Part shown: positions 1 to 5,503 of the stretch, piece by piece | How the letters are laid out: every line of letters starts with the position of its first letter | Numbering within the stretch: position 1 is the stretch's first letter | NCBI GenBank assembly: GCA_003646995.1 | Contig: QMLZ01000212.1 | Location: 1 to 5,503, forward strand | DNA length: 5,503 nt | Direction of reading: 5' to 3' | From: Deltaproteobacteria bacterium | Lineage (GTDB): Bacteria; Desulfobacterota; DSM-4660; Desulfatiglandales; Desulfatiglandaceae | Program-made: the position numbers and the translations under genes | The notes under the pieces: generated by a model | Seen by the model: the letters and a program-made list of their open reading frames with translations, nothing else | What the model was told of the DNA's origin: nothing | Database searches by the model: none

Positions 1-3000
1 ACCTGGGGCACTGTCTTCGATTGCCTTGAGCTTGCCTATAACCGCACTTCTTTCAACATTTCTAAGCGCAAGACATGCTAGTGCAGTCCGTAGCCGCTTC
101 CATTGAATATTTACCAATTTGATATTGGAATCTAGAACAACATCTGGGTCTTTTGCTAAAATGCTGTATTTGACTCTGATTACTTCCAAAAATTTTTCAT
201 CGTCCGGAAAGTCAGGCTTTTCAAGCAGTTCCGCTGCCTGGGTCCTAAACCAATCTATTATAGGCAGTTCGATTGTCGCAGAGTCTGGCGACCAGGTATC
301 ATGTATGGATTCAGACGGTTTTAAGTCATCGTACGAGGTCCATCTCTCCCTAAACTCCTCTCTTTGGGACCCCACAAGGTGTTTCTGGAGGAATCCACAT
401 GCTGACCATCTAGTTTCCTGTTTTGCCCTGTTAAAAGCTTCAATAGCTTGATCATTACTGACAATTTGTCCCCTGGCTCCAATTTCTTTTGCCGCTGAAT
501 TCCAGTTTTTGAGATCGATGCCAAATAACTCATAAGCTTTTTTCGAAATCTCGGTCGCCTCTCGTGTTTGTTCTGCAAGCTGTCTCAATGCATTTGCATA
601 AGCGGCTGCTTTTGGGATTCTGCATTTGGCCAAGATATTTTCCATAGTCTGTTCGGCAAGCTCGTAAGGTTTTCCGCTATCAGCTACTTTGCTGATAATA
701 CCGTTGAACTCCGCAGTTGAGAGAGGCCGTGTGCCTGATTTAGCAAGGCAAAATAAAGCAGGCACAACTGATCTGATTATTTGCTGTGTCTGTCCTCCTA
801 TTACTTGGAAGAGTTCTTGGAGATTTGCTGGGTCTATGTCCAACTTATCTATAGCGAGGTTAGGAGGCAAATCTTGTCTCAAGGTGCTGTCGAAAGTGGC
901 CTCTTCAACATCTCGAAGCCACAGTTCTGCAGGTTTCCGGTAGTCCTCCCTGCCAAACAATAGGCTAAGAGGCAAGGCTAAATCCCGCAGCTTAAGATCC
1001 TTTCCAATATCAAAAAATAGCACGTTTTCTGAGGAAGAATAGAAAATGTTGCGGGGTTTTGGATTCACGGGTAATCCTTCCAGTCTTATTACAAGGTTGC
1101 GCACATATTTGGCCTTTGCCCCTTGTATACGAGGCAAGAGCCGTTTCTGGAAATCACCCTCCGGGTTTGAAACTGACATCGGCTGTGTTTGCCTGCCAAA
1201 AGCCAGGACCGCAAGCGCTGGTTGAACTAGCCAAGGGAAAACATCATTTACGAACCTTGGTTCTTCCCATCCGTCAACCTCATCATATTCTGGGATTATT
1301 TTCAGCTCTGATAACCTCCGTACCTTTGCGTTTTGGAAGATGGTCTTAAGAAGAGCGACTTTATCATCCCAGCGGGATCTTGTTTTACCTGTACAGGCTA
1401 CAAGGGTCCCTGATGGAAGCAGCGAGAGGCAATCCTCATTATCATTAACCCATACTGTATACTTTTTGGAGTTCTCATCTGAAATACGTTGCAGCCAACG
1501 CAGCCGTTTTCCACCATCTTTTTGGGTTTCGTAAACCAAAGCAGCTCCAGGCGATTTCTTAGCAGCCGTACCAGAGTTAAATTGAGATATGGCGTCGTCA
1601 AACAATTCCTGCCATAAAGACAGGAGGAAGTGCTCACGTTCACTCGGAAGAAGCTTATGGGTTTGAAACAGCAAGTTCATGATGTGAAAGGGTTCTTGCG
1701 ACTTCTTTTGTGGAGAATAGACAACGATTCCTATCTTGCTGCAAAGCTCTTCAGAAATGCAACGTTCTACAGTGGGATCAATGTGAGGAAGCAGGGAATA
1801 TATTAAGGTACTCCCTGGTCCGAAAAGATCCTTGCTTATTTTGACTGTTCTTCTAGGTTCGACAAGATCGCTAAACTCATCACTCACTTCACGGTCTTCC
1901 AAAATTCTTGTCGCCCAAACTTTGGAAGGAATCCATTTAGCTTCTCTGAGTTGTTCAACAACAAATCCGGTGACAGCCCATTGTCTGGACTCTCCATAAT
2001 CTTTTGGGTCGCGTCGGATAGTCACGGTCATATAGCGCTTGTAATATTTGTCCCACCCTCTACCCAGGCACCGCGCTAAGGCTCGCGCATCCCTTACTGA
2101 ATTTGGAATTTCTTCTATATAGGCGATTTGGTCAAGTTCAAATTTCGCAGGCATTTGAAAAGGGCGATTCTTACTTTCATTTTCTATTCTTTGAAGATAC
2201 CTTTCCCAGGTCACTTCCTCTATGGGGAGCTTGTGTTTTAGGGGGGCATCACGAAGCGCAGAGGTATCAAGAGAATAATTGTATCCTTCGGGGCACATTT
2301 CTGGAAGAACTTTTCCTCGCCTTGTTGCCTTAAAAATATGAAGTTTCGGCGCTGTCCAAACTCCAAGTGCTTCCAGGATGAACTGCTTCAAGTCCTCTTT
2401 CAGATTATATGATGTAATTAACTTTTGGTAGGTGTTCGGCAACCTTTGAATAAGATTATTCGGGTGTAGAACAAAGGGTCTTTGAGGTTTTGCGCTCTGA
2501 AATACCTTCTCGAGGTCTGCACCCTCCTCACCTGTCCATGCCTTTCCTGCATAGGTTTCATTACCTGGCCGAAAACCTACCTGGGTTGGCACCAAGAGAC
2601 GACCCCAATCGACAGATTGGCTTTCTCCGCGCATCTGTTTCCAAAGAATGAAAGTCCAGGCGAAAATCTCGCCTGCGTCTTTCCGTCTTTTTTTTGACAT
2701 TTTCTCCTTGTAAAGATCCCGACAGACATGGTTAAGTATGAAATCAGCCACCTGTTCAGTCCGAAATTCCCTAACAAGTGTCCCACCCCGATACTCTCTT
2801 ATAAGGAAAGACCGAATGAGTTTATCCCCAAGGTCTACGTCTGGATGCAGAAATGCAACTCTCTTTCTGAGAGCAGTTGGCAAGGACTCGGTAAGAACAT
2901 CTTGGAATTTCTTGATCATTGGGCTTTCGTCATCAGAAGCAACAAGTCGTCTTGGTGGCGAGAATATTCTGGACTCTTTTTCGACCTTGTATACTCCAGT

Positions 3001-4860
3001 TTGGGTCCATATCAGTTTTTTGCCTAACAAGGCTTCATATGGTATGTCCAAATGCCCTAGCCACCTATAAAGGGAATTCCACCATGTACTATCTCGCTCA
3101 TTGTTGGACACGCGGCGAATTGTGATTTCAGCGAGATGGACAAGCTCTTCTTCCATTGGGACCATTGTCTCAACTTCGAAAGCATTTGCAGTATTTTCGA
3201 TTAGCTCTTCATTCATTATTTGCGGATGTGGTAGCAAAAGGGAGACCTGCTCGCGGCAGGCAATGTCTAACATAGGCGGAACAGGATCAACTTCCCATCT
3301 GAGATTTTTCGGAAGGGTTATCTCTGAAATCTTTTTGTAATCCAGTTTGCCCTTGGAATTAGCTTCGCTGAGTATCCAGTCTTCCTCTTTTACAATGCGT
3401 TGTATGGACTCACTTGATATTTGCAGTTTCGCAAGAGGTTGCTCCTGGTCAAAAATTCCTAGCAAACGCAATATTGCCTGGCCTGATTCTACTTCTTTTG
3501 ACCTCCGAAGAAGGTAGATCATGTCTCCAACACAGGACACGGCATGTCTCAGAAGGTAGGAATTCCATTCGCGGGCCCACTCAATACTTTTTCGGTCAAT
3601 ACTCCCGTAAAAGGGTGCATTGACCCAGGCACCTGTTCCTGTCTTTGCAAGTGTAGGCAAATATATTGAAAATCTTCCTTCGCTGTTACCATCATCTATA
3701 CCATCTATAGGAACAGCAATCTCCACCTCTACCCGTCTGATTTGATGCCACCGTTCTGGAAGAGCTGTAAGAGCATCCTTAAGTTCCTGGCTGGATAAAG
3801 GCTTTTTATAAAACCACCATTTCTGTGACCCACCTTCTAGATCTCCTCGTTCCTTTCCGCAGATATCTGTCCATGTTTGCCTGTCATAGTAAACAACCTC
3901 TATTTTTCCCTTTCTGATCTCTCTTGTCTTTTCTGAAGAGGGAATAGCTCTTACAAATTCAACAATTCTATTTGGTCTAGATTCCTGAGTGTTTTCCGCA
4001 TAAACTGAGATACGTCGGGCATTCCGGAGAAAAAGGAATGAGTATGGGTGTAATTCAGCCAAGGCTTCTTTAAGGATAGACTCAGCACCTGGCTTTATTT
4101 TTATGCACACAGCTGTTGCAAATCCCAATTTAGCGACCCAGGGTAATAATGGGTCTGACGCCTCAATCGGGATAGGCATTTCATATACAGGCAGCCACTT
4201 GCATGAACGCTCCAAAATTTCAGGATTTTTGAGACTGTTTTCCAATGATTCTATGAGCTTGGGTTGCGGATTTTCCAATAATTGAAAGGGTATGCCGGAG
4301 ATTTCCATTTGAGGAGCACACTTCGAGACGAAGCTTTCTGATGCTACCCTCCGCAAAGCATTCACAATCTCGTCAGGGTCAAAACAGAAACAGTAGCCAT
4401 CGAAATTAGGTTGAGTATTTTCAGGGCGGTTAATGTCGCTGGAATATATGACGGGTGACTTGCAGACTTCCAAGACTGAACGGAAACCAAGTCCCTTATT
4501 GCCAATAGCATCTTCCGGGTTTTTGTCTGTCAGGCCCAAAGTACAAAGGCTTTCAAAATTCTTTTGGCTGAAGCCTCTGCCTGTGTTGCAAACTACTACC
4601 CTTGGTGTTGGTTCTTGCCTGATTACTATGAGTATCTGACCATCATTTCCACAGGCGTCATCGGCATTTTGAATTAGTTCTATTAGAAAACGGCCATGAT
4701 ATTCTTGAGATAATTGCTCTTCAATTGACCTGCGACCTTCAAAGATATTGGTTCCACGGCGGATGTCATCCATGAAGGCATAGATTTTGGCTTGGAGCCG
4801 TTCTAAGATAGAAGTGTAGTAATTGTTGGGGGCCATATTCATAATAGCGTTTTCTGGCAA
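1..4860 (-). CDS. Giant sacsin-like (HSP90-type GHKL) ATPase, C-terminus cut by window edge
   Basis: One frame stays open from an in-frame TGA at 4900-4902 to the left edge, giving 1620 codons from TTG 4860. Seen: a GHKL ATP site with ELIQNADDA at residues 61-69 (E61 and N65 match HSP90's catalytic Glu and Mg-binding Asn), NTGRGF at 92-97 replacing DxGxG, and GNKGLGFRSV at 120-129. Residues 396-423 (FSIYLPT then NAPFYGSIDR) resemble the segment after the ATPase in sacsin repeats. Further along are VPTQVGFRP (757-765) with W775, a basic KKRRK patch near 723-727 and a Trp-rich stretch at 961-976, then a helical, charged region to residue 1620. No signal peptide or membrane segment is apparent, so it is probably cytoplasmic. 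Long bacterial proteins of this type are often annotated 'sacsin N-terminal ATPase-like' and occur in defence islands; some relatives end in a DUF3883 domain, which would lie past the edge. It follows a methyltransferase gene in the same direction, 121 bases away. The start is TTG 4860 because of its AAAGGA site; ATG 4842 or 4836 are alternatives. The ATPase fold is confident; the biological role is inferred. Confidence 0.92.
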   Translation of the reverse strand, partial: MPENAIMNMAPNNYYTSILERLQAKIYAFMDDIRRGTNIFEGRRSIEEQLSQEYHGRFLIELIQNADDACGNDGQILIVIRQEPTPRVVVCNTGRGFSQKNFESLCTLGLTDKNPEDAIGNKGLGFRSVLEVCKSPVIYSSDINRPENTQPNFDGYCFCFDPDEIVNALRRVASESFVSKCAPQMEISGIPFQLLENPQPKLIESLENSLKNPEILERSCKWLPVYEMPIPIEASDPLLPWVAKLGFATAVCIKIKPGAESILKEALAELHPYSFLFLRNARRISVYAENTQESRPNRIVEFVRAIPSSEKTREIRKGKIEVVYYDRQTWTDICGKERGDLEGGSQKWWFYKKPLSSQELKDALTALPERWHQIRRVEVEIAVPIDGIDDGNSEGRFSIYLPTLAKTGTGAWVNAPFYGSIDRKSIEWAREWNSYLLRHAVSCVGDMIYLLRRSKEVESGQAILRLLGIFDQEQPLAKLQISSESIQRIVKEEDWILSEANSKGKLDYKKISEITLPKNLRWEVDPVPPMLDIACREQVSLLLPHPQIMNEELIENTANAFEVETMVPMEEELVHLAEITIRRVSNNERDSTWWNSLYRWLGHLDIPYEALLGKKLIWTQTGVYKVEKESRIFSPPRRLVASDDESPMIKKFQDVLTESLPTALRKRVAFLHPDVDLGDKLIRSFLIREYRGGTLVREFRTEQVADFILNHVCRDLYKEKMSKKRRKDAGEIFAWTFILWKQMRGESQSVDWGRLLVPTQVGFRPGNETYAGKAWTGEEGADLEKVFQSAKPQRPFVLHPNNLIQRLPNTYQKLITSYNLKEDLKQFILEALGVWTAPKLHIFKATRRGKVLPEMCPEGYNYSLDTSALRDAPLKHKLPIEEVTWERYLQRIENESKNRPFQMPAKFELDQIAYIEEIPNSVRDARALARCLGRGWDKYYKRYMTVTIRRDPKDYGESRQWAVTGFVVEQLREAKWIPSKVWATRILEDREVSDEFSDLVEPRRTVKISKDLFGPGSTLIYSLLPHIDPTVERCISEELCSKIGIVVYSPQKKSQEPFHIMNLLFQTHKLLPSEREHFLLSLWQELFDDAISQFNSGTAAKKSPGAALVYETQKDGGKRLRWLQRISDENSKKYTVWVNDNEDCLSLLPSGTLVACTGKTRSRWDDKVALLKTIFQNAKVRRLSELKIIPEYDEVDGWEEPRFVNDVFPWLVQPALAVLAFGRQTQPMSVSNPEGDFQKRLLPRIQGAKAKYVRNLVIRLEGLPVNPKPRNIFYSSSENVLFFDIGKDLKLRDLALPLSLLFGREDYRKPAELWLRDVEEATFDSTLRQDLPPNLAIDKLDIDPANLQELFQVIGGQTQQIIRSVVPALFCLAKSGTRPLSTAEFNGIISKVADSGKPYELAEQTMENILAKCRIPKAAAYANALRQLAEQTREATEISKKAYELFGIDLKNWNSAAKEIGARGQIVSNDQAIEAFNRAKQETRWSACGFLQKHLVGSQREEFRERWTSYDDLKPSESIHDTWSPDSATIELPIIDWFRTQAAELLEKPDFPDDEKFLEVIRVKYSILAKDPDVVLDSNIKLVNIQWKRLRTALACLALRNVERSAVIGKLKAIEDSAPG
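2688..2709 (-). other. Possible internal start and A8 slippage-prone tract inside the ATPase gene
   Basis: On the coding strand AAGGAG (2709-2704) is followed by AAA and an in-frame ATG (2700-2698, residue 721), then TC and a run of eight A (2695-2688) encoding the Lys-rich start of MSKKRRKDAG. The spacing of three bases is shorter than the usual five to nine. If used, the start would yield a C-terminal isoform of at least 900 residues that lacks the ATP site. Loss of one A would shift into a frame that stops at 2577; gain of one A would stop at 2561. Both events are possible on the sequence but unproven, and purine-rich lysine codons can produce such patterns by chance. Confidence 0.2.
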
Positions 4861-4981
4861 ATTTTTTCCTTTCAGATTCAAAGTCAACCCATATTCAGAT
4901 CACCTCAAGTTCTTTCGAGATTAAGGACATATATTCTTTTGTAAATTCTAACAAAGACTTCTTCATCCTTCAGAATCTTTC
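4861..4981 (-). other. 121-base gap between the methyltransferase and ATPase genes
   Basis: The gap holds the AAAGGA site and no convincing terminator hairpin, which fits co-transcription of the two genes. A 23-codon micro-ORF (4895-4966, beginning MKKSLLEFTKEYM) lies inside, but its AAGG directly abuts the ATG, a poor initiation geometry. Two similar leader stretches occur, GATTCTGAAGGA (4977-4966) and GAATCTGAAAGGA (4879-4867), an imperfect direct repeat ending in purine-rich ribosome-binding sequence. A TTGACT hexamer (4887-4882) is present, but no matching -10 lies at usable distance upstream of the gene start. Confidence 0.6.
4867..4872 (-). promoter_or_regulatory. Shine-Dalgarno site AAAGGA for the ATPase gene, favouring a TTG start
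   Basis: On the minus strand AAAGGA is followed by six bases (AAAAAT) and then TTG at 4860-4858, which is near-ideal spacing. The first in-frame ATG (4842) is 24 bases from the site and the second (4836) 30 bases, and neither has a purine-rich site of its own. I therefore chose the TTG, which adds six residues before the first Met. N-terminal sequencing or homologue alignment could move the start. Confidence 0.55.
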
Positions 4982-5503
4982 TCATTGATCACTGACATTA
5001 TAAACCTTGAGCACTTCATCCCCATAATGATTGATGACCTTGACAGCAATCTTTCCGGTTGAGGGTGGATCGAAGGGGCGGCTCTTGGTTGTGTAAAGAG
5101 ATGACCAGGCTTCCTCGTTAATCTCTGCTTTGAGAGCACGCTTAAGCTTATCATAAGGTCGATCCGCTCCTGTGAAATAGGCATGGCGGATAAAGAAGCT
5201 CTCTTCATTATAATCAGTATCAATAAACCAGCAGGCAATATCGTCCGTGGAGTGAGAGCGGATTTCCCCGGTAGTGGGGTCATAAATATCCACTCCCTTG
5301 ACCTCTACCGTTATTTTGCCATCTTTTCTCCTGGTGATCTCAAGGTCAGGCTCCCCGAAAACCATAAATAGGTTCCCCGCACCCGTCTTTTTCAGGAGTT
5401 CATCGCCCATGGTCAAATCCGGGTTCATTCTTGTGGGGAGCACGGTCAGTTGGCCAGAACGCTTTGCCTCTTCTGAAACATGAGGATCAAAGGCAAAACC
5501 ACA
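4982..5503 (-). CDS. C-terminal part of a type III Mod-like adenine-specific DNA methyltransferase (5' end outside window)
   Basis: The frame is open from the right edge to a TGA at 4982-4984 and gives 173 residues. A GTG at 5443 and ATGs inside are unlikely starts, because the 20 residues upstream (GFAFDPHVSEEAKR and onward) read as protein and continue off the window. Recognisable stretches are MGDELLKKTGAGNLFMVFGE, a GVDIYDPTTGEIRS turn, DDIACWFIDTDYNEESFFIR, and the terminal block SRPFDPPSTGKIAVKVINHY followed by GDEVLKVYNV. From memory, this tail belongs to a family of long site-specific DNA methyltransferases (COG2189, Mod-like) in type III-like restriction-modification clusters. The catalytic DPPY-type and SAM-binding FxGxG motifs are not visible, since they lie upstream, so the assignment rests on family resemblance of the C-terminus. 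The expected role is sequence-specific DNA methylation that protects the host genome. The fragment could instead be the tail of a partner helicase or nuclease subunit, which I consider less likely. It is the upstream co-directional neighbour of the giant ATPase gene. Confidence 0.75.
   Translation of the reverse strand, partial: CGFAFDPHVSEEAKRSGQLTVLPTRMNPDLTMGDELLKKTGAGNLFMVFGEPDLEITRRKDGKITVEVKGVDIYDPTTGEIRSHSTDDIACWFIDTDYNEESFFIRHAYFTGADRPYDKLKRALKAEINEEAWSSLYTTKSRPFDPPSTGKIAVKVINHYGDEVLKVYNVSDQ

Follow-up and report, generated by a model that had tools for sequence, protein, structure and literature searches.

A divergent TmtA-family ATPase gene next to a Res-Mod-type methyltransferase gene in a deltaproteobacterial contig, probably as neighbours in a defence island

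Do a methyltransferase gene and a giant ATPase gene that lie side by side on one strand form a single anti-phage system, or do they only share a location? The question is raised by a stretch of 5,503 nucleotides (the window; contig QMLZ01000212.1 of assembly GCA_003646995.1, Deltaproteobacteria bacterium, Desulfatiglandaceae), which carries the end of a Mod-type DNA methyltransferase gene followed by a sacsin-like ATPase gene. A preliminary description of the window had proposed a two-gene defence module in which methylation marks self and the chaperone-like ATPase senses or executes. A link to defence was supported, as both families are catalogued as anti-phage defence in PADLOC, but a single joint system was unsupported. 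The likely answer is that these are two separate defence genes that follow one another, head to tail, within a defence island, with a Res-Mod pair and a TmtA protein that act independently. This pattern was indicated because the neighbours of TmtA-like genes vary, the genes after Mods of the window type vary, the two genes differ in third-position GC, and the two families were unlinked in the loci compared.

The methyltransferase gene is represented by its 3' end, at 4982..5503 on the minus strand (173 codons and a stop codon at 4984-4982), and its 5' part lies beyond base 5503. The encoded tail matched the PADLOC profile MTase_III (E 6.4e-57; the match spans positions 798-982 of the 983 in the profile) and, in the same scan, neither PglX nor DrmM; scans with Pfam and NCBIfam gave no convincing match. 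It is 77% identical to the tail of a Mod from a Nostocales plasmid, which is encoded directly behind a Res of the BPTD_3080 family (1175 bits, cut-off 800; NCBIfam NF046055, Res). The plasmid Mod, like other relatives of the Mod tail, has the N6_N4_Mtase catalytic domain (PF01555), of which the window, with the tail only, gives no view. The assignment as a Mod-like tail in the preliminary description was thus confirmed, with membership in the BPTD_3080 Res-Mod family added.

Related Mod genes were compared in 58 loci. Thirty-three were from viruses and plasmids and scored above 1.15 bits per residue, a cut chosen by the authors; they comprised 25 of the 71 loci from viral contigs and every one of the 8 plasmid records opened, out of 38 with such a Mod. 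The other 25 were genome loci, defined as Mod matches above 1150 bits among the 25 + 41 genomes with any match, from scans of 398 genomes of one phylum (presumably Pseudomonadota) and 295 of another (presumably Nitrospirota). A Res gene was found upstream of Mod in 54 of the 58 loci: in all 25 from genomes and in 29 of the 33 from viruses and plasmids, the remaining four having 0, 0, 0 and 1753 bases upstream. In two of the genome loci (L120 and L133) the Res gene ended 2.6-4 kb ahead of Mod. Because Res precedes Mod in nearly all the loci compared, the window is most simply explained by a Res gene just beyond base 5503, upstream of Mod. The preliminary description had suggested that the ATPase might take the place of the restriction subunit. 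That idea was rejected, because Res is found upstream of the related Mods and because proteins of the ATPase family themselves carry a nuclease-like domain at the C-terminus, described below.

The position after Mod is not empty in this family. In 20 of the 25 loci from genomes a UvrD-like helicase of about 700 residues was encoded downstream of Mod, and in 16 of the 33 viral and plasmid loci one was encoded within 4 kb (L112-L136; L033, L035, L036, L044-L097). BPTD_3080 Res-Mod-UvrD seems to be a variant of three genes that goes with a different group of Mods. Since the UvrD-like gene recurs there, a linked gene can occupy this position, and the window ATPase might likewise belong to the Res-Mod operon as an accessory gene. 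This is improbable, however, for the Mod type present in the window: among the 10 loci with a Mod of at least 1500 bits, none had a UvrD-like gene in reach, and the genes found downstream were unlike one another, a pattern more suggestive of free insertion than of a fixed slot. DNA downstream of Mod was available in 56 of the 58 loci, all but L049 and L090.

The second gene, at 1..4860 on the minus strand, encodes at least 1620 residues from a TTG start, with no stop codon before base 1. The protein matched Pfam SACS (E 7.8e-9), NCBIfam P_loop_sacsin (E 7.6e-20) and nine PADLOC profiles for TmtA, from E 6e-129 for the best to E 0.003 for the weakest, so that the sacsin/HSP90-type ATPase of the preliminary description was confirmed and also given a family. 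The best profile, PDLC03971, aligned along most of its length (window residues 18-1523 with profile positions 8-1416 of 1782). PADLOC prints only the name TmtA, which we take to denote the gene of the single-gene anti-phage system Tiamat, reportedly from the 2022 screen of Millman et al. The preliminary description had matched the pair to no named system; the ATPase by itself does match one.

The ATP-binding motifs of the N-terminal sacsin/GHKL domain, a domain that Tiamat also has, are intact in the window protein. The N box ELIQNADDA (4654..4680, minus strand), the G1-box region VVVCNTGRGF (4570..4599, minus strand) and the G2 box IGNKGLGFRSVL (4471..4506, minus strand) are each covered by 33 of the 37 aligned rows, in which the E, N and D of the N box, N92 and G94 of the G1-box region and glycines 120, 123 and 125 of the G2 box are invariant (numbering of P0001, the closest relative). 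A middle region resembling the S5 or transducer domain, with conserved FSIYLPT and NAPFYGSIDR (3592..3672, minus strand), has I399, L401-T403, P416-F417, G419 and R423 (P0001 numbering) invariant in 14 rows.

A search with the ATPase gave 379 relatives among 7991 scored candidates. Among the matches listed (120 of the 379), 39 were close relatives (P0001-P0039, 49-98% identity), and the next were at most 31% identical; the listings of two other protein searches likewise covered 120 of 7996 and 120 of 6200 matches. The full-length relative P0001 has 1909 residues and is 98% identical over 99% of the query; the window protein ends about 290 residues short of its C-terminus. Four plasmid and viral TmtA members have a similar length (1776-1928 residues). 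In a full alignment, however, the window protein was only about 21-23% identical to other TmtA members, it scored 430 bits with its end missing against 805-1845 bits for six others, and its clade stood on a branch of its own (1.72 changes per column). By these comparisons the window ATPase is a new, divergent member of the TmtA family.

If the two genes formed a fixed module, as the preliminary description proposed, their homologs should be neighbours in distant genomes. For the families at large they were not. Profiles for the window clade and for wider relatives of the ATPase detected a TmtA-like gene in none of the 58 Mod loci, within the stretch read, and in none of the 46 other viral loci (35 with lower-scoring Mods and 11 without a Mod match). 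In the opposite direction, the Mod profile had no match in the nine other TmtA-like loci, defined by scores above 200 bits (L010, L012, L013, L014, L025, L026, L027, L028 and L039; L015, L016 and L038 belong to the records that also contain L012 and L010). Both L026 and L028 are fragmentary, the latter with one side in view, and 7 of the 22 plasmid records with a TmtA match were opened. By eye, no accession was common to the TmtA and Mod plasmid searches among 20 of 22 and 30 of 38 listed, and the window DNA matched nine plasmid records, in the Mod tail only. For the families at large a new module of two genes is therefore not supported; the ATPase is a protein of an already catalogued kind, and its gene is most likely an island neighbour of Mod. 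The scope of these counts leaves some room for a joint system: the closest clade of the ATPase (49-98% identical) lies outside the loci compared, and the scans of genome contigs gave no close relative of the ATPase.

The junction itself also bears on a joint system. With the TTG at 4860, which is the favoured start and has an AGGA motif in front (preceding sequence GAAAGGAAAAAAT), the gap between Mod and the ATPase gene is exactly 121 bases; the ATPase reading frame has no stop codon from 4887 down to base 1, and alternative starts would change the gap to 94-145 bases. No terminator was detected in a scan between 4600 and 5300 (shuffle mean 0.7), in agreement with the preliminary description of two same-strand genes without an evident terminator. 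Promoter-like sites near the junction were at chance level (2 against 1.7), and the intergenic RNA folded no better than shuffled sequences (z 0.22). The spacing, shared strand and lack of a terminator would suit a system of this clade in which Mod marks self and the GHKL ATPase-nuclease senses and cuts unmarked DNA, with or without Res. Such a system is nevertheless unlikely, given that the pairing was absent from all the other loci compared and that the third-position GC of the two genes differs.

The neighbours of other TmtA-like genes bear on the same question. The preliminary description had noted that GHKL ATPases recur beside methyltransferases, and this held for three of the nine loci (L010, L039 and L026), although each had a methyltransferase of a different kind and none had one of the window's Mod family. 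In L010 the TmtA-like gene overlaps the end of a PglX/type IIG-like methyltransferase gene by one base, within a locus like ARMADA type II, and in L039 the TmtA gene follows a type I restriction-modification (R-M) operon; both arrangements favour joint function. In L026 the ATPase gene is fragmentary, and pieces of a cytosine methyltransferase gene are on the opposite strand. In contrast, L013 has a TM0106-type nuclease as neighbour and no annotated methyltransferase nearby, and none was annotated at L012, L014, L025, L027 or the visible side of L028, the plasmid gene tables being incomplete. Adjacency to a methyltransferase is thus weak evidence of a joint system, because the ATPase family adjoins three other kinds of methyltransferase and elsewhere none that is annotated. 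In its strongest form the joint system would be a methylation-gated single immune system of this metagenomic clade, in which Mod marks self and an Hsp90-like clamp with a PD-(D/E)XK nuclease reads the missing mark; this too is unlikely. If true, proteins of the TmtA type would serve modification systems as their restriction arm, something that the ARMADA-like and type I R-M neighbourhoods also hint at. According to the available text of PMC12629846, Tiamat is common in an island hotspot of Pseudomonas, where it occurs with type IV R-M, which fits co-location in islands without joint function.

Named systems that combine such components were also considered. ARMADA, as described in the accessible part of PMC12458937, suits L010 and not the window: a methyltransferase is encoded directly upstream of the TmtA-like gene in both, but that of L010 is PglX/type IIG-like and accompanied by BrxHII-, YprA/DruE- and GajB-like genes, whereas the window Mod is of another family. 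In that accessible text the terms GHKL, HSP90, DUF3883, NOV and MutL were not found, and its section 5, as far as available, makes no mention of a TmtA-like component. Hma was rejected, as the accessible text of PMC8565338 describes it as a helicase, an m5C methyltransferase and an ATPase, the last being reported as DUF499 in the part of PMC12839542 available. The nearest named relatives of the upstream gene are the BPTD_3080 Res-Mod systems, from which the window differs in having a TmtA-like ATPase gene after Mod and the putative Res gene out of view.

The ATPase family appears to carry its own means of cutting DNA. The C-terminus of P0001 matched NOV_C/DUF3883 (residues 1819-1876, E 1.3e-6, Pfam), a domain also present at the C-terminus of Tiamat proteins, and the PD-(D/E)XK site residues G1780, E1784, D1819, G1822, D1824, E1837 and K1839 were invariant in 37 of 37 aligned relatives. 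DUF3883 is termed a novel restriction endonuclease (REase) domain in the available text of PMC3710099. Because a 98% identical relative ends in this domain with the conserved signature, the window ATPase probably brings its own C-terminal nuclease, encoded just beyond base 1. The Pfam scan of P0001 gave neither a DnaJ nor a HEPN match.

The predicted fold of residues 29-555 matched the N-terminal and middle domains of Hsp90, the predicted N-terminal fold resembled Hsp90, sacsin and MutL, and sacsin was the nearest solved relative by sequence. These similarities would also suit a housekeeping chaperone or repair protein with no role in defence. That reading is very improbable, as it sits poorly with the match to a defence-library family along most of the protein, the nuclease-like domain of the relatives (with about 1900 residues and a PD-(D/E)XK-type domain, TmtA proteins differ from sacsin SR1, Hsp90, MORC and MutL), the R-M genes alongside and the patchy occurrence. 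Relatives were found in 0 of 11 stretches in a scan of genome contigs with the window protein; a second ATPase query (A1) matched 9 of 77 stretches, at 27-34% identity and in the N-terminal region only, and neither scan gave a close relative. At E 1e-30 the TmtA profile matched 1 of the 398 genomes in the phylum of an Alteromonadales-titled genome (E 3e-37) and none of 14 control genomes; the locus of that sole match (L137) scored only 86 bits on the wide ATPase profile. A1 had no match in the 295 genomes of the phylum of a Nitrospirae-titled genome at E 1e-15, nor in 39 genomes of a further phylum at E 1e-30, empty answers that are uninformative alone. A search of phage records gave two short matches.

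GHKL proteins such as MutL, MORC and Hsp90 close as dimers on ATP binding, and in MutL such a clamp is coupled to a nuclease. With two independent defence genes, the upstream unit would be a type III-like R-M operon of the BPTD_3080 family, with Res and then Mod as its last gene, and the downstream unit a TmtA protein of the divergent clade, with a sacsin/HSP90-type GHKL ATPase at its N-terminus, a PD-(D/E)XK nuclease at its C-terminus and a long middle part between them. We infer that the ATPase may work by itself, as a clamp driven by ATP: the GHKL dimer would close on binding ATP, a phage-specific DNA or protein state would trigger closure, and the C-terminal nuclease would then cut DNA. 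The Mod/Res pair would be independent of it, and the two units would have in common the island and perhaps a transcript. For Tiamat the mechanism is given as unknown in the accessible portions of PMC10482375 and PMC12926258, and no paper on it was found in the literature searched, a restricted collection. The comparison matters in three ways. A giant gene described as sacsin-like gains a name, TmtA; its family is seen to combine an ATPase of the Hsp90 type with a PD-(D/E)XK-like domain whose motif residues are invariant, as judged from the alignments; and this domain make-up suggests a mechanism, open to testing, for a defence system that is listed with none known.

Several smaller observations were made at these loci. 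Missed by the preliminary description, a 26-codon open frame lies between the two genes (4905..4985, minus strand), with an ATG that overlaps the Mod stop codon (ATGA); it probably carries no meaning. After the window-type Mod of L128, a frame of 1416 residues (6320-10570) had matches to an AAA/STAND NTPase and a Cap4-like nuclease, all under the curated cut-offs, and is another candidate defence gene in that slot by virtue of these matches. In L010 (2434-25326 of IMGVR_UViG_3300002219_000864, the ARMADA type II-like locus) the TmtA-like gene at 10004-15508 sits between the PglX/type IIG-like methyltransferase gene and DUF932, YprA/DruE-like and UvrD/GajB-like genes. In L039 (331-15238) one strand encodes in succession HsdM, HsdS, a NucS/DUF5655 protein, HsdR, a Sel1-repeat protein and TmtA. 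On the Desulfosarcina sp. BuS5 plasmid (L012, 14944-22226) the annotated TmtA-like gene is without the nuclease end. This gene is split around an antisense group II intron reverse transcriptase gene (19679-21052) and is probably disrupted, because its two pieces flank that gene.
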